In this document: positions 2,649 to 24,702 of the stretch, piece by piece
Layout: each line of letters opens with the position of its first letter
Numbering within the stretch: position 1 is the stretch's first letter
IMG/VR virus record: IMGVR_UViG_3300044691_000392
Span: 1 to 36,378 of that record
Reading direction: 5' to 3' (one strand)
DNA from: a virus
DNA: 36,378 nt
The notes under the pieces: model-generated
Database searches by the model: none
The model's input: the letters and a program-made list of their open reading frames with translations, nothing else
Told to the model about the DNA's origin: nothing
Made by a program: the position numbers and the translations under genes

Positions 2649-3440
2649 GTGACCAATGCCGACCCGCGACGGCGGCAACGGTTCGATACACGTCGGGAGG
2701 GTGGGACGCGAGGTTACGCTCGTTTTCTGCCCTCCCGGCAGTATCGACGGCCCAACAGTTTCCTTCTCGGCGGAGTCCGTCCAAGAACTCATCGCCGCCC
2801 TCGTGAGCGCAAGACGCACGGCCTGCGGATCCCTCTGGGCCTCATCGCCGCCTTCATCGCCATAGGCGGCTGCTCGCACCCCTCGGCACAGCTATCCCCG
2901 CCGAAGCTCACCTCACCACCGAGCTCCGCCCCGGCGCAGAACGCGCCAGACGTGTTCCCCACCGGGATTCGCATCCCGTCGATCAAGGTGAACAACAACC
3001 AGTTCATGCAGGTAGGACTCGTGGGGCCACCGTCCAGCCCGGAACTCGAGGTCCCACCACTGAGCGCACCCATGCTCGTGGCCTGGTACCGGGTGTCAGC
3101 AGTCCCCGGCGATCCGGGGCCGAAGCCGTCGATCGTCGAGTCGCACATCAACGGCAACGAGATGCAGGGCGGGTTCGCCAAGCTGGACTCAGTGAAGGTC
3201 GGCGACACCATCCAGGTCGACCGCTCAGATCAGCAGACCGCCGTGTTCAAGGTGACCGCGACCAACCTTTACAAGAAAGCCGACTACGACAAGTGGAAGG
3301 CGAAGGTATTCGGCAATGTCGACCGCCCGACCCTGAAGCTGATCACCTGCTCCGGAGACTACGACAAGGTCCACCGCAACTACCTCTCCAACCGGGTCGT
3401 CTCCGCCGATCTTGTACGTCTGCAGCCGAAGAGCCCGTAG
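2649..3440 (+). CDS. Class E/F-like sortase (transpeptidase fold)
   Basis: The C-terminal ~160 residues match the sortase beta-barrel pattern of actinobacterial class E/F enzymes. They show RIPSIKV at the barrel start, VPGDPG, then ESHING with candidate catalytic His166, a F-x-x-L-x-x-V-K-V-G-D-T motif, LKLITCSG with candidate catalytic Cys234, and SNRVV with candidate Arg249 (numbering from GTG 2649). Sortases cleave a sorting signal and transfer it to an amine acceptor at the cell surface. A hydrophobic segment at residues 62-75 ending IGGC could be a signal anchor or lipobox. The start is uncertain: GTG 2649 is the only standard start upstream of that segment, has no SD, and reads across another convincing frame (2656-2865). 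The family call is firm; activity and substrate are unknown. Confidence 0.75.
   Translation: MTNADPRRRQRFDTRREGGTRGYARFLPSRQYRRPNSFLLGGVRPRTHRRPRERKTHGLRIPLGLIAAFIAIGGCSHPSAQLSPPKLTSPPSSAPAQNAPDVFPTGIRIPSIKVNNNQFMQVGLVGPPSSPELEVPPLSAPMLVAWYRVSAVPGDPGPKPSIVESHINGNEMQGGFAKLDSVKVGDTIQVDRSDQQTAVFKVTATNLYKKADYDKWKAKVFGNVDRPTLKLITCSGDYDKVHRNYLSNRVVSADLVRLQPKSP
2656..2865 (+). CDS. Small protein overlapping the sortase N-terminus
   Basis: This 69-residue frame starts at ATG 2656, 11 bases after the secreted-protein stop, and from 2656 to about 2810 has clearly better G/C third-position bias than the sortase frame. Its core (REVTLVFCPPG, then TVSFSAESVQELIAAL) reads like a small two-strand-plus-helix domain loosely reminiscent of DUF397-type proteins. 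The last ~20 residues overlap the sortase signal segment and look like read-through. Either this is a separate gene whose end overlaps the sortase start, or one frame carries an indel. No function is assigned. Confidence 0.45.
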   Translation: MPTRDGGNGSIHVGRVGREVTLVFCPPGSIDGPTVSFSAESVQELIAALVSARRTACGSLWASSPPSSP

Positions 3441-4114: not shown

Positions 4115-5038
4115 ATGGCCAAGAAGGTCAGCAAGAAGCTCGGCCGGCTCCCCAGCGCTCCCCGCGACCTGGTCCGGAGCATCCCGCTGAAGAGCGTCCT
4201 CAAGGCCGGATACACCGGGACGGTGCCGGACGTGGTGGCGTACGTGCCGGACGCGGTGAACCTGCCCATGGATTCGAACGACCAGCTCGGCGACTGCACG
4301 GCCGCCGGCGCGGCCCACGTTGAGACCGCCCTGTCGCAGTTCGGCCAGGGAGCTCCGGTCGTGGTGTCGGACGCCGACGTGATCAAGTTCTACAGCGGCT
4401 CCACCGGCTACGTGCCGGGCAAGCCGAACACCGACCAGGGCGGCGACATGCAGACCGTCTTGAAGTACTGGAACGCGACCGGCATCGCCGGTCACAAGAT
4501 CGCTGCCTACTTCGCGGTCGACCCCAAAGACTTCGACGAGATGCGCGCCGCGCTGTATCTCTTCGGGAACCTCTACATCGGATTCAACTGCACCCAGGGC
4601 TTCGAGACCGCGTTCGACAAGGGCACCGTCTTCGATGTCGTCCGTCGGGACCGCGTGCTCGGTGGGCACTGCGTCGCCGTCCATCAGATCACCAAGGGCG
4701 GCACCATCAAGGGCTCCACGTGGGGCGGCTACTTCGAGATGACTGAGGCGGCGTGGACCGCGTGGGTGGACGAGCCGTACGCTGTCGCATCGCAGGAGTG
4801 GATCAAGAACAACCTCACCCCCGAAGGCCTGGACGTCAACGCGGCCAACGCGGCGTACCTGCAGGTCACCGGCAAGCCGGGGCCGTTCATCTTCACCGGG
4901 CCGGTCACCCCGCCGCCGGTCCCCACTCCGACTCCCGTGCCAGCTCCGTCAGGTGACGCGGTCGCACTGCTGACCAGCCTGGAGTCGCAGATCGGCGCGT
5001 TCCTGTCCGCGCAGGCTCCGCCGGTCCACGGTCACTAG
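4115..5038 (+). CDS. Papain/C39-like cysteine peptidase, likely lysin component
   Basis: A 307-residue protein. Residues ~35-235 carry the order of a papain-fold cysteine peptidase: Gln57 and Cys61 in DQLGDCTAAG, then His185 in GGHCVAVH, then STWGGYF at 201-207, where papains have NSWG. The third catalytic position is thus Ser/Thr rather than Asn. A Pro-rich linker (residues 263-279) leads to a short C-terminal helix. In many actinophages a peptidase domain is part of, or adjacent to, lysin A; here the next gene is a lysozyme-like endolysin, so together they may form a split lysin that cuts peptide and glycan bonds of the wall. There is no signal peptide. SD is AGGAG at 4104-4108. Confidence 0.7.
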   Translation: MAKKVSKKLGRLPSAPRDLVRSIPLKSVLKAGYTGTVPDVVAYVPDAVNLPMDSNDQLGDCTAAGAAHVETALSQFGQGAPVVVSDADVIKFYSGSTGYVPGKPNTDQGGDMQTVLKYWNATGIAGHKIAAYFAVDPKDFDEMRAALYLFGNLYIGFNCTQGFETAFDKGTVFDVVRRDRVLGGHCVAVHQITKGGTIKGSTWGGYFEMTEAAWTAWVDEPYAVASQEWIKNNLTPEGLDVNAANAAYLQVTGKPGPFIFTGPVTPPPVPTPTPVPAPSGDAVALLTSLESQIGAFLSAQAPPVHGH

Positions 5039-5040
5039 CC

Positions 5041-6171
5041 ATGGCCGACTGGAAGTGGCATCCGGAGCGTGCGGAAGGCGACAGGTGGGTTGAAGCCGGC
5101 GCACCCGAGCCGGAGACGACGCTCCTCGCCGCAGCCGGTCCGGTGGACATCCTCACCGCCGGCGGCATCCTGCGGGCCACCGAGGTTGTCGAGCTCGCGG
5201 CGGCGGCCAGGTTGGACCTGGCCGCCGCCGCTGTCGTCCTCCTGAAGGAGTCGGGCGGCGGACGGAACGTGTGGGGCCACGACGGTGTCATCGTCGCCCC
5301 CAACACCTACGTCAAGGGCGCCCCGGTCACTGAGCAGGCATACCGCGCCTACCTCCAGGCGGTAACCGCTGGACGAGCTGGGCGGCAGGGCTGCGGTCCG
5401 CTGCAGCTCACTTGGAGCGGCTACCAGGCCCAGGCGGACACCCTCGGCGGCTGCTGGGACTGGCGCAGCAACGTCACAGTCGGCTTCCAAGCCCTGGCTC
5501 AGCACATTCGTAACAGCGGCCTGCGCGGCGGCTTCAGGGATTACAACGGCTCGGGCCCTGCGGCCGAGAAGTACGCCGACGACGCCATGGCTCGCTACGA
5601 CGTGTGGCGCGTGCGACTGGGAACACCCGACCCAATAGGTGGCGGCGTGACAGATCAGCAGATCGACGAAATCCACCAGCAGCTGCTCGGTGTCATGCCG
5701 GCGTGGGGCGGCGGTGTCACCGACGACAAGGGCACTCCGTACAACGCGCTCCAGTTCGCCATGCGGACCAACGTCGAGATCCATCAGACCGCCCTGATGT
5801 GCCAGCAGCTGTTGAAGCGAGCGCAGGCGAAACCGCCGCAGATGTTGGCCGAAGACGTCAACCGGATCGCAGCCACGGTGGCTAAGCACCCGGAGATCGC
5901 GGCGTCGGCCGCCACGGTCGCGTCGTTGGCCGCCGCCGGGGAGATCACGACGGTCTCGTTCTGGAAGGACAGTGCCGAGCGCGCCGCGAAGGCGTTCGCG
6001 GGGGCTGCGATCACGTTGTTCGGCGCCGGGCCCCTGGACGTGCTGCATATCGACTGGCAGTCGACGTTGAGCCTGTCCGCCGGCGCGGCCGTGGTGTCGC
6101 TGTTGATGTCGGTGGCGTCGTCGCAGATCGGCACTCCCGGCAGCCCGTCGCTCGTGAAGGGGAAGCCGTGA
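5041..6171 (+). CDS. Lysozyme-like endolysin fused to an r1t-type holin domain
   Basis: A 376-residue protein in three parts. Residues ~35-195 are a lysozyme/transglycosylase-like domain with the candidate catalytic Glu70 in LLKESGGGRNVWG, the usual E-S-G-G-G-x-N-x-(F/W)-G motif, and CGPLQLTW. Residues ~200-300 are a helical linker. Residues 306-373 match an r1t-family phage holin: FWKDSAERAAKAFA, LHIDWQ, a hydrophobic segment (SAGAAVVSLLMSVASS) and the typical C-terminus GTPGSPSLV. Endolysin and holin are normally separate genes; here they share one uninterrupted frame. It begins two bases after the peptidase stop and ends with GTGA overlap into the SNase gene. No SD is visible, so translation is probably coupled. 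Confidence 0.8.
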   Translation: MADWKWHPERAEGDRWVEAGAPEPETTLLAAAGPVDILTAGGILRATEVVELAAAARLDLAAAAVVLLKESGGGRNVWGHDGVIVAPNTYVKGAPVTEQAYRAYLQAVTAGRAGRQGCGPLQLTWSGYQAQADTLGGCWDWRSNVTVGFQALAQHIRNSGLRGGFRDYNGSGPAAEKYADDAMARYDVWRVRLGTPDPIGGGVTDQQIDEIHQQLLGVMPAWGGGVTDDKGTPYNALQFAMRTNVEIHQTALMCQQLLKRAQAKPPQMLAEDVNRIAATVAKHPEIAASAATVASLAAAGEITTVSFWKDSAERAAKAFAGAAITLFGAGPLDVLHIDWQSTLSLSAGAAVVSLLMSVASSQIGTPGSPSLVKGKP

Positions 6172-6554
6172 GCGTGCGCGTCTATCCAGCCATGGTGGTG
6201 TCCGTGCACGACGGGGACACGGCGACCGTCTCCGTCGACCAAGGTTGGTCGAACTCCAGGCTGTGCGTCATCCGGCTGTGGGGGATGAACGCGATCGAGC
6301 TCGCGCAGCCGGGCGGCCCGGAAGCCCGCGACCACTTGATGGCGATGCTGCCGGTCGGGCTGCCGGTCACCCTGATCTCTCACGGTTGGGACAAGTACGG
6401 CGACCGGACCGACGGGCAGATCATCCTCCCGAACGGGGTCGACACCGGCATTCAGATGATCGCCGACGGATACGCCGCCGCCTGGACCGGCAAAGGCCCG
6501 CGCCCGGTACCGCCATGGCCCATTCCAGTGCCCGCTTCGAAGGAAGGAAAGTAG
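6168..6554 (+). CDS. Staphylococcal-nuclease-like (SNase/TNase) protein
   Basis: A 128-residue protein starting at GTG 6168 with a four-base overlap. It shows the SNase pattern: VVSVHDGDTATV (Asp15 and Asp17, metal site), RLCVIRLWGMNAIEL (Arg36 and Glu44 as catalytic candidates), GGPEARDHLMAML, and KYGDRTDGQI with an Arg at the third active-site position. The family cleaves DNA and RNA with Ca2+. It lacks a signal peptide. Between the endolysin-holin and virion genes it may act on nucleic acid during lysis, or be structural. Family call fairly firm; role inferred. Confidence 0.75.
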   Translation: MSVRVYPAMVVSVHDGDTATVSVDQGWSNSRLCVIRLWGMNAIELAQPGGPEARDHLMAMLPVGLPVTLISHGWDKYGDRTDGQIILPNGVDTGIQMIADGYAAAWTGKGPRPVPPWPIPVPASKEGK

Positions 6555-6556
6555 CC

Positions 6557-6679
6557 GTGCTCTCTGTGAACCGGATCCTGGCCATCCTCGCCCTGCTGCT
6601 CTTCATCGCCAGCATCTTCTATGGATCTGTGGTGGCCGCCGTGGCGGGGATCCTGCTGGCCATCGCCGTGATCGTCTAA
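6557..6679 (+). CDS. 40-residue hydrophobic membrane peptide
   Basis: GTG 6557 follows the SNase stop by two bases, with GGAAGGAAAG just upstream as SD. The product is almost entirely hydrophobic (ILAILALLLFIASIFYG, then VVAAVAGILLAIAVIV), giving two short or one long membrane segment with a tiny Gly/Ser turn. The stop TAA shares its last A with the next ATG. In a lysis cassette a two-span peptide could be a second holin or antiholin; this is inference. Confidence 0.65.
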   Translation: MLSVNRILAILALLLFIASIFYGSVVAAVAGILLAIAVIV

Positions 6680-20216: not shown

Positions 20217-21740
20217 TCAGACGGGTAGCACCTTCGGTCGCAACCGGGCGCCCAGCAGTTCCTCGGCAGCACCGGCGACAGCGTCGAGTACGTCGTCATG
20301 CGAGCCCCGGGGGTACTCGAGCATCTGCTCCCGCAGCGTGGGGAAGTCCTCCGCCCACGCCATCCAGCCCATCTGACAGAAGTCGAGATGTTCGTCGAAC
20401 CGGCGCGGTTTCCCCTTGCTCAAGTGCCGGGTAACGAGCTTGACGCCCGGAGGCAACACCGGCTCGAGCTCGTTGCGGTAGGTATCCTCGCCGCCCATGG
20501 TGTCGTCGATGAACACTGTGTCGATCATCGGGTTGTCGTGAGTCAGGCGCCCGACCAGGTTCTTCCGCTCGTTCGGCTTCAGCTTGAAGCCCTCCGCGTA
20601 CAGCACCACCGCCCGGTTACCAGACAGTCCCACCACGGCCAGCCCGGTCGGATCCGACTTCGCATTGGTGGTCACGCCGGGGTCCACCCACAGCACCGCA
20701 CGAGTGCACCGCAGTCGGTCCAGGATCGGGGGCAGGTCACCCGGCGCCCACAGCCCGTCCTCCTGGCTGCATGGCATGTTCTGGAAGTGCAGCGCGAAGA
20801 GTCGGGTATGACGCTGGGATTGCAGGTACTCCAGTGGCCACTTGACCGGCCAGATGGACCGCTCCGAGCCGTCGGCCTCGGTGATAATCGCCGGGTAATG
20901 CCGGGGCTTGAACTGGTACTCGTCGACCCACTCGGCGCCTTCGCTGTACACCGAGCGCACCAGGTCGTGCGTCGCGCTGCCATACATCGTCGTGGTGCCA
21001 GTCCACTGGACCACCGCACGATCATTCATCGGCAAGATCGCGCCCACCGTGGCGAGGCGCTGCTTCTTCTTGTGCAGGCTGTAGTTGCCCTCGTCATCTT
21101 CGATGTCATCAAGCAAAATCAGATCCGGCCGCATGCCGTGCACGTTCGCGCCGAGCTGGTTCGAGTCGATCCCGTGCGCCATCACCACCGCACCGGAACT
21201 GGCTACGTACATGTGCCGGGCTTCGGCGACGGCCCGGCCGCCCACCTTCGCCGGCGTGCACAGATCCGGAAAGTCGTTGCGCAACAGCGGGTAGGTGTCC
21301 ATGCAGTGCCGCAGGTTTCCCATGATGCGCTCGGCGGCAATCTTGTTAGCGCCGAACATCATCACCATCCGGCGGTGCCCATGCGCAAGCGCCCACAGCG
21401 TTAAAAAGGTCTGCCAGGTTGACTTGGCGGCGCCGCGCGGAGCGATCCACGCCTGGCGGATCTGCGCCGGCGACAGGTCGCGGACCAGCCACGACTCGGC
21501 CTCGTACGCCATGTCGATATGGAACTGGGACAGGTGAATGTCCGGGGAAATGGCCGGATCAATCAAGCGCTGATCACAGTAGAGCAACGCGAACAGCAGC
21601 GGGAACGCACGCGTCACTGCCCGGCGGTACGTGGCGTGCTCCATCGCCGCCCTGTTCAGCTTCGCCAGGTGCCAGTCCAGATCAAAAGACTCCGGCGCAT
21701 AGATGCTGGGGACGTAATCAATCACCATCGGCGCGGGCAC
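20217..21740 (-). CDS. terL: Terminase large subunit
   Basis: A 507-residue packaging ATPase-nuclease that translocates DNA into the prohead and cuts it. The N-terminal ATPase half has Walker A-like APRGAAKST and Walker B LILLDDIEDDEG. The C-terminal RNase H-like nuclease half has WVDPGV (first Asp), VFIDDTMGGED (second acidic cluster) and SHDDVLDAVAG (last Asp pair). I start at GTG 21740 because GGAGGAG lies just upstream; ATG 21728 is possible. It overlaps TerS by 23 bases. Terminase genes usually lie beside portal and capsid genes on the same strand; here they sit in a leftward accessory operon. Confidence 0.9.
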   Translation of the reverse strand: MPAPMVIDYVPSIYAPESFDLDWHLAKLNRAAMEHATYRRAVTRAFPLLFALLYCDQRLIDPAISPDIHLSQFHIDMAYEAESWLVRDLSPAQIRQAWIAPRGAAKSTWQTFLTLWALAHGHRRMVMMFGANKIAAERIMGNLRHCMDTYPLLRNDFPDLCTPAKVGGRAVAEARHMYVASSGAVVMAHGIDSNQLGANVHGMRPDLILLDDIEDDEGNYSLHKKKQRLATVGAILPMNDRAVVQWTGTTTMYGSATHDLVRSVYSEGAEWVDEYQFKPRHYPAIITEADGSERSIWPVKWPLEYLQSQRHTRLFALHFQNMPCSQEDGLWAPGDLPPILDRLRCTRAVLWVDPGVTTNAKSDPTGLAVVGLSGNRAVVLYAEGFKLKPNERKNLVGRLTHDNPMIDTVFIDDTMGGEDTYRNELEPVLPPGVKLVTRHLSKGKPRRFDEHLDFCQMGWMAWAEDFPTLREQMLEYPRGSHDDVLDAVAGAAEELLGARLRPKVLPV

Positions 21741-22206
21741 GGATCTCCTCCTCGCGCTTCGCCAGGTCCGCCTCCGCACGCTCCACCGCAGCTCTCAGCC
21801 CTGGCGGGAGCTCCACCGCGACATCGCCGGACACCTGCAATTTGTCCGGCGCGAAGAGGCCCAGCAGCTTGGCCTCCTGCGCCCACAGCCCGACCTGAGT
21901 ACTGGTCAGCCGGGCGATCGCATCCGGGTTGTCGCCGACCTCGATGGCATCCTTCTCGGCGATGATGCGCTCTTCGGCCTGCGCAACCCGAGCCAGCTGT
22001 CGCTCACGCGCCTTGTCCGAGAGGGGGCCGATGCGCCGGATCCACTCATCGTCCAAGCGGTTCTGCACGGTGCCCTTGGACAGGCCCATCTCCCGGGCGA
22101 TCTCCCGGATGCACTTTCCCTGCTCCCGCAGTTCGTAGATCTTCTCCTGCTGCGCGATGATCTTGGCCTGGTTGGCGGCAAGATGCGGAGCGGTACCTGC
22201 GAACAC
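21718..22206 (-). CDS. terS: Terminase small subunit
   Basis: A 162-residue protein from GTG 22206 (SD AGGAAGG). Residues ~30-55 form a HTH (GKCIREIAREMGLSKG then TVQNRL), the DNA-recognition part, followed by a long helical oligomerisation region (RERQLARVAQAEERIIAE) and a C-terminal segment (ALRAAVERAEADLAK) that would contact TerL. TerS binds the packaging site and loads DNA onto TerL. Adjacent to and overlapping terL. Confidence 0.8.
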   Translation of the reverse strand: MFAGTAPHLAANQAKIIAQQEKIYELREQGKCIREIAREMGLSKGTVQNRLDDEWIRRIGPLSDKARERQLARVAQAEERIIAEKDAIEVGDNPDAIARLTSTQVGLWAQEAKLLGLFAPDKLQVSGDVAVELPPGLRAAVERAEADLAKREEEIRARADGD

Positions 22207-23238: not shown

Positions 23239-24702
23239 GTGTCACCCTCCCCGGAACCCAATGACGCTGCGCTACGAGCCGGCCTTTACTGCCGGGTCAG
23301 CAATGACCCGAGTAAGCGCGGCGCATCTGTCGCTGACCAGGAGAAAGAGGGTAGGCGGTGGTGTGAGGATAACGGGTACACGATCGCGTGGGTGATCGTC
23401 GACAACGACCTGTCGGCCAGTAAGGGCTCGAAGGAACGTCCGGGGTACGAGCGAGTCAAGGTGAACCTGGCTGGCGCCGACCCGGTGGACGTGCTGGTGA
23501 CATGGGAGTCCTCGAGGCTCGGACGTGATCTTGACATGTACGTGGAGATGCGGAACCTGTTCGAGAACTCCAACACGCTGCTGTCCTACAACGGGCGCCT
23601 CTACGACATGTCCCGCATCGACGACCGGTTCACCACCGGCCTGGATGCGCTGATCGACGAACGCTACTCGGGTGAGATCAGGAAGCGGGTGCTGCGCTCA
23701 GTGCGGTCGCGCATAGCTAAAGGCCTACCGCACGGGCGGCTCCCGTTCGGCTATCAAGAGGTGTACGACCCCACCACCGGGGCACCGTTGAGTCGTGAGA
23801 TTGACCCGGCCAACGCCCGGATCGTCACGGAGATCGTTCGCCGGATGCTGGGCGGGGATGCCGCCTACGCGATCGCGCAAGATCTGAACGGCCGGGGGGT
23901 GCCGACGCCGAGCGATGTGGTCCGAGCTCGGCGCAATCAGCCGGCGGATCCGACATCACGATGGTCGATCGAGGCGGTGCGGCGGATCGCCTCGAACCCC
24001 ACCTACGCGGCGCTGCGGATGCACAAGACCAACTTCGCGGGGGAGGGCAACTGGCCGGCGATCATCTCCCAGACCGACCACCAGCGCATGTTGGCGATGC
24101 TGGCCGACCCGCGCCGGCGCACCTACCGGGAAGCGGCGGCGACGAAGCACCTGCTGTCCGGGATCGCGGAGTGTGGTGTGTGCGGGGCTCGGTGTCGCCT
24201 GGTGAAGACCCGGGGCATCGCCACTTACGGGTGTTCGAAGAACTTCTGTGTGGGCGCGGCGCAAACGTCCCTGGACGGGTACATCGCGTTCCGGACCGTG
24301 CGCCGGCTGGAGGATCCGGCGTACCGGGCGTCGCTGGAGCGCGAGGACGAGCCGGAGGTCCCCGCCGCTGTCGCCGAACTCGAGCAGTTGGAAGCCCGGA
24401 TGGAAGCCTTCTACTCCTCGGCGGAGGAACCGGACGGGATCTCCCCGGAGACCTTGGCTCGAATGGAAGCGAAGTATCTGCCGTTGATCGAGGACGCCCG
24501 TTCCCGGTCGGTTCCTTCGACGGTGCCGACGGTGTTGCGGGATGGGTTGACGGCGCCGGACGCCACCCAGTGGTGGCTGGGGCTGTCTCCGTCCGGTCGC
24601 CGTCGTGTGGTGAGGGCATTGATGGTGGTGCGGATCAATCGCTCGAGCAAGCCAGGGTCGAAGGTGTTTGACCCCGCGCGCATCGCCGTGGAGTGGCTCT
24701 AG
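23239..24702 (+). CDS. int: Large serine integrase
   Basis: A 487-residue site-specific recombinase that inserts the phage genome at attB. The N-terminal resolvase domain has the nucleophile Ser21 in YCRVSND and the S-R-L-G-R-D block (WESSRLGRDLDMY). A recombinase domain follows (GLPHGRLPFGYQEVYD then ALN-type QDLNGRGVPTP). The zinc ribbon is AECGVCGARCRL...YGCSKNFC, then a coiled coil and a C-terminal domain. It starts at GTG 23239 without an SD, with a -10-like TAGCAT ten bases upstream, so a leaderless message is likely. Its stop overlaps the stop of the convergent gene. Confidence 0.92.
   Translation: MSPSPEPNDAALRAGLYCRVSNDPSKRGASVADQEKEGRRWCEDNGYTIAWVIVDNDLSASKGSKERPGYERVKVNLAGADPVDVLVTWESSRLGRDLDMYVEMRNLFENSNTLLSYNGRLYDMSRIDDRFTTGLDALIDERYSGEIRKRVLRSVRSRIAKGLPHGRLPFGYQEVYDPTTGAPLSREIDPANARIVTEIVRRMLGGDAAYAIAQDLNGRGVPTPSDVVRARRNQPADPTSRWSIEAVRRIASNPTYAALRMHKTNFAGEGNWPAIISQTDHQRMLAMLADPRRRTYREAAATKHLLSGIAECGVCGARCRLVKTRGIATYGCSKNFCVGAAQTSLDGYIAFRTVRRLEDPAYRASLEREDEPEVPAAVAELEQLEARMEAFYSSAEEPDGISPETLARMEAKYLPLIEDARSRSVPSTVPTVLRDGLTAPDATQWWLGLSPSGRRRVVRALMVVRINRSSKPGSKVFDPARIAVEWL

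Follow-up and report, generated by a model that had tools for sequence, protein, structure and literature searches.

A conserved endolysin–r1t holin fusion gene of a small phage group, with exchangeable modules and a probable internal start

Organization of the fusion locus

An open reading frame of 376 codons (5041–6171), running from ATG to TGA without any internal stop, was identified in the window, the whole stretch of 36,378 nucleotides of viral DNA analysed here. A preliminary description of this DNA had read the frame as an endolysin and an r1t-type holin joined with no stop between the two domains; the uninterrupted frame was confirmed upon checking, and the joining of the two was backed by profile matches, structure prediction and six homologous fusions. 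The features of the locus are listed below.

5041–6171, plus strand: endolysin–linker–r1t holin fusion gene, 376 aa (open frame; full-length homologues in L002, L016, L043 and L126, and homologues with other catalytic domains in L044 and L047)
5041–5130, plus strand: N-terminal segment, residues 1–30 (W-W...EPET), common by alignment to all seven fused members regardless of the catalytic domain
5140–5619, plus strand: lysozyme-like catalytic domain, residues 34–193, with Glu70 at 5248–5250 (AlphaFold model, fold matches and alignment)
5637–5642, plus strand: AGGTGG, a Shine-Dalgarno-like (SD) sequence located 4 bases before GTG 5647 (from the sequence; duplex –5.8 kcal/mol)
5647–6171, plus strand: candidate internal in-frame gene for a 174-aa linker–holin, GTG 5647 being residue 203 at the catalytic/linker boundary
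5650–5952, plus strand: helical linker, residues 204–304, about 100 aa (alignments and model of the 174-aa product; also found in the unfused L017 and L127)
5944–5946, plus strand: ATC at the former holin start, where L016, L043 and L044 have ATG
5953–6159, plus strand: r1t holin domain, residues 305–373 (PF16945 and phrog_443; two predicted helices at about residues 305–328 and 339–363)
6168–6554, plus strand: SNase-like/endonuclease gene (phrog_452 endonuclease, 3.5e-11), overlapping the fusion stop by four bases (GTGA) and conserved as a neighbour in L002
6557–6679, plus strand: 40-aa protein with two predicted transmembrane (TM) helices (SD –8.4; L016, L044, L047 and L126 have a homologue after the fusion)

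The C-terminal domain belongs by profile to the r1t holin family PF16945, which it matched over residues 305–373 (profile positions 2–70 of 72, E = 5.2e-21) with a score of 74.9 bits against the curated cut-off of 26.9, and it also matched the PHROG holin family phrog_443 at 5.6e-19. The placement of the holin at residues 306–373 in the preliminary description agrees closely with the profile search, and the concern that the C-terminal segment might be an unrelated tail found in homologous endolysins did not hold. The domain departs from the usual form of r1t holins as small separate proteins, since it ends a frame of 376 aa and even the product of the internal start would have 174 aa. The holin part was poorly resolved in the first AlphaFold model and was modelled with moderate confidence (mean pLDDT 70) in the second, that of the 174-aa product, in which two helices are predicted; the hydropathy of this part is moderate. 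Positive charges precede helix 1 and follow helix 2, with acidic residues in between, and this charge pattern, taken together with the modelled helices, suggests that both ends of the hairpin lie inside. The dN/dS ratio of the holin part was 0.13–0.25 for pairs sharing a holin type, and by this sequence-based measure the holin part is under purifying selection.

The N-terminal domain showed no significant match in Pfam, PHROG or NCBIfam, and a sequence search of the 376-aa fusion protein against solved structures gave no match. The AlphaFold model of residues 34–193 was, however, of high confidence (pLDDT 83–97 in blocks of 10 residues), and aligned with lytic transglycosylases at Z up to 11.9, with a GH23 chitinase at 10.2 and with goose-type lysozymes at 8.7–9.1. 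Glu70 is unchanged across 14 relatives in the alignment, and was placed opposite the SRES glutamate of goose lysozyme by a weak profile alignment. With both the fold and the conserved catalytic glutamate of the lysozyme superfamily (GH23/goose-type), residues 34–193 are assigned on the basis of this model to the GH23/goose-lysozyme fold as a putative peptidoglycan hydrolase. The earlier proposal of a lysozyme-like region at about residues 35–195 with Glu70 was thus substantiated by model-based fold matches and by the invariance of Glu70, while the suggested comparison of residues 30–200 with lysozyme and transglycosylase families succeeded for the modelled fold and failed for the Pfam, PHROG and NCBIfam profiles.

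The gene located just upstream of the fusion (4115–5038) matched phrog_19005, a family of unknown function, at 3.4e-34; its identity to the L044 counterpart is about 90%, though the catalytic domain encoded by the next gene differs. Further upstream, a class F sortase-like protein (2649–3440) matched NF033748 at 1.7e-36, below the curated cut-off. Downstream, small two-TM proteins of 40–46 aa follow the fusion at five of its seven loci (for instance L016 8133–8258 and L126 7478–7618); the two-TM protein gave no family match, and that of the window is possibly a second holin or an antiholin.

The contig of L016 (G001:C361, 69,366 bases; L128–L131) was binned as a Nocardioides metagenome-assembled genome (MAG), and because its 127-base ends are identical, it seems to be a phage genome of about 69.2 kb that is complete and was assembled as a circle. 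The window carries an integrase (23239–24702) and a large terminase (20220–21779, minus strand), and because it is colinear with the L016 contig over much of its length, it probably represents part of a related temperate phage. The binning, taken by itself, suggests a Nocardioides host.

Fused and unfused relatives

The same fusion was identified in six further contigs of related phages. The first relative, L002, was found by a relative search and is fused along the whole length, and L016, L043, L044, L047 and L126 were added by profile searches with the catalytic, holin and linker–holin parts. All the fused members are metagenomic in source, and the frame is open in all seven genes. In two of them the catalytic slot is occupied by another enzyme in frame with the r1t holin, an M15_4 peptidase in L044 (6e-11; phrog_1512 endolysin, 2e-30) and an Amidase_2 domain in L047 (1.9e-11; phrog_12609 endolysin, 3.8e-31), so that PHROG endolysin and holin matches lie within a single protein.

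The holin domain is also exchanged in some fused members. Identities in the catalytic, linker and holin parts were 92, 81 and 55% between the window and L016, and 92, 85 and 46% between L043 and L126, and the pattern was reversed between the window and L047 (26, 68 and 89%) and between L016 and L044 (24, 67 and 94%). At the DNA level, the window is 90% identical to L044 up to 5046, just past the ATG, after which the similarity is lost until 5656, just past the candidate internal start. As judged from these alignments, the three modules (catalytic, linker and holin) are reassorted independently of one another within a single frame. Module swapping with retention of the open frame, together with the dN/dS of the holin part, forms the strongest argument that the fused state has been selected and is not an accident of one genome.

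Split forms, for which a survey of relatives had been proposed at the outset, were found in more distant relatives. In L017 the same lysozyme and linker end in a stop, and a separate r1t holin is located two genes on; in L127 this linker carries a Rv2525c-like glycoside hydrolase, and the r1t holin is separate and lies past the stop; and in L004 a lysozyme with PG_binding_1 is followed directly by a separate r1t holin. Three fused genes retain ATG where the holin formerly started (M-T/G-T-V/I-SFWK), and from this retention and the unfused relatives we infer that two neighbouring genes were probably fused when the stop between them was lost. A possible precursor of a fusion was noted in L143 (G626:C63, about 5466), where an r1t-like holin match and an amidase-like sequence upstream of it share a frame, separated by a single TGA. 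As a separate observation, L035 (1291–1812) and L146 (about 1500) carry single frames seemingly with two tandem r1t-like holin units.

The fused state is rare. Among 80 r1t holin loci on viral contigs, four were fused, and nearly all other r1t holins surveyed were stand-alone; in all but a few of the unfused loci among these 80, an ATG or GTG lies no more than 15 codons from the domain, in most cases together with an SD. In the genomes surveyed from the class (395) and from the order (392), an endolysin–holin fusion was found only in the known MAG, a few matches close to contig ends being left unjudged, and the lysozyme family was likewise found only in the known MAG among the 395 genomes of the class. 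In the MAG bin of the L016 contig, the fused r1t holin is the only r1t holin present. A tblastn search among phages gave no match for the 376-aa fusion protein or for its holin part, while another r1t holin found 463 records; the absence is weak evidence because the fusion query may suffer from compositional filtering. With the linker–holin of L047 as query, tblastn in isolated phages detected only the holin part, never covering 80% of the query.

Candidate internal start

The preliminary description had found no internal SD between the two domains. This point did not hold, as AGGTGG precedes the in-frame GTG 5647. The codon at this boundary is ATG or GTG in all 13 genes examined, seven fused and six unfused; among the fused genes it is GTG in the window, L002, L044 and L047 and ATG in L016, L043 and L126, and the internal products predicted across the seven range from 162 to 174 aa. 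All of the five boundary valines are encoded by GTG. In L002 (GGAGGacgacGTG), L044 and L047, the boundary SD is the best among the in-frame ATG and GTG codons of the gene, and in the unfused L018, AGGAGGT is located before the boundary start codon; the boundary SD of L126 is almost nil (–3.3).

A rank test of SD strength in the fused genes gave p = 0.006. Shuffling of synonymous codons with the protein fixed gave p = 0.29 when the SD was scored and 0.054 when SD and start codon were combined in these genes, and because these shuffles were not significant, the SD signal may in part be dictated by the codons for Gly, Asp and Glu; the tests are moreover not independent, because the genes are related. 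Altogether, translation from GTG 5647 to give a free 174-aa linker–holin is likely, with moderate support from these sequence comparisons. Two other candidate starts were rejected. For Met268, proposed in the preliminary description as the start of a separate holin, the SD is weak (–2.9 kcal/mol), and L002, L043 and L126 do not conserve this residue. A start at the edge of the holin domain has ATG in three of the seven fused genes (SD –4.5, –1.5 and –4.8), and is not general because the window has ATC there.

Interpretation and comparison with known systems

The best explanation of these observations, which we consider probable, is a natural endolysin–holin fusion that would be mounted on the membrane and probably made together with a free linker–holin. 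In this protein, a putative N-terminal hydrolase is followed by the helical linker and a complete r1t-type holin hairpin. With the hairpin ends predicted inside, the enzyme would stay on the cytoplasmic face of the membrane until the membrane opens. The internal start at GTG 5647 probably adds the enzyme-free 174-aa linker–holin, and enzyme-bearing and enzyme-free holin subunits may co-assemble. The r1t domain of the fusion, we infer, still permeabilises the membrane; the holin part would open it at a set time, whereupon the enzyme tethered at the lesion would meet the wall at once. The fusion may also alter the timing of lysis, as the preliminary description proposed. A stronger form of the proposal, that one gene encodes a two-part lysis device in which the fusion and the internal-start linker–holin co-assemble, the hydrolase is built into the lesion, and enzymes and holins serve as exchangeable plug-ins, is put forward tentatively, at somewhat less than even chances.

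One alternative is that only the 376-aa fusion is made, without a holin made on its own, and that the hairpin serves as a membrane anchor for delivery of the enzyme, in the manner of M4Lys/Enc34-type endolysins. M4Lys lyses a cell alone when overproduced, and requires its C-terminal transmembrane domain for this (PMC7143992; PMC8943055), and the moderate internal SD of the window (–5.8) and the non-significant synonymous shuffles are in line with such a product. The boundary start codon is nevertheless kept in all the seven fused genes with ATG and GTG alternating, and its SD is the best one in L002, L044 and L047; this alternative is regarded as unlikely, at about one chance in a few. The small two-TM protein near five of the seven fused loci could be the working holin, in which case the r1t domain would act as an anchor without holin action and the protein encoded at 6557–6679 would be the real holin. 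The conservation of this protein downstream in L016, L044, L047 and L126 and its good SD speak for this arrangement; it is, however, without a family match and was not found in L002 and L043, while the r1t domain covers 69 of the 72 profile positions with a high score, is under purifying selection, and has been exchanged for other intact r1t domains, not for other anchors. We consider a passive r1t domain of this kind quite improbable. The adjacent or close location of both genes in unfused relatives could also recall a stop erased by sequencing or assembly error, a danger already raised in the preliminary description, but seven contigs carry the fusion in diverged sequences with the frame intact, and the six homologous fusions rule such an error out for practical purposes.

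In the usual picture of phage lysis, two separate proteins take part, an enzyme that cuts the wall and a membrane protein that releases it. The persistence of a fusion in a small group of actinobacterial phages challenges this picture. Three enzyme classes on one holin platform offer a test of whether an endolysin needs to diffuse freely or may be tethered, and the fusion allows one to ask how a holin keeps time while bearing an enzyme of 200 residues. Such fusions may also be viewed as natural designs for membrane-mounted lytic enzymes.

Among the open-access papers searched, none was found that describes an r1t holin joined to an endolysin, or an endolysin-then-r1t fusion of actinobacterial phages in which the enzyme and holin modules are exchangeable and an internal start is likely. 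The nearest likeness in having holin and endolysin in one protein is in Clostridium sporogenes, where a TpeE-family holin and an endolysin are translated together (WP_163247266.1; PMC9527704). In that protein a one-TM TpeE holin is N-terminal and the endolysin C-terminal, whereas the 376-aa fusion has the reversed order, a two-helix r1t domain and a likely internal start, and thus lacks the TpeE-type layout with the holin first. The M4Lys/Enc34-type endolysins resemble the fusion in carrying an N-terminal catalytic domain and a C-terminal two-helix membrane domain, and provide a model of how a membrane part at the C-terminus may deliver an enzyme at the N-terminus; they differ in that the membrane domain is described as transmembrane without assignment to a holin family, the holin gene is separate, and the hosts are Gram-negative. 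Their catalytic domain is of family PHA02564. Phages of Gram-positive bacteria commonly make endolysins as two polypeptides, with a start at such a boundary (PMC9430671). Ms6 LysA, Lys170, CTP1L and others (PMC9430671; PMC4777826) have an internal start between the catalytic and C-terminal parts, as is likely here, but their short product is a wall-binding or second catalytic domain, while here it would be a linker–holin. The r1t holins (PF16945) that stand alone in mycobacteriophages and other actinophages have the same domain over nearly the whole profile, but are normally encoded by a small separate gene with its own start and SD, whereas here the domain forms the C-terminal part of a fusion with an endolysin.
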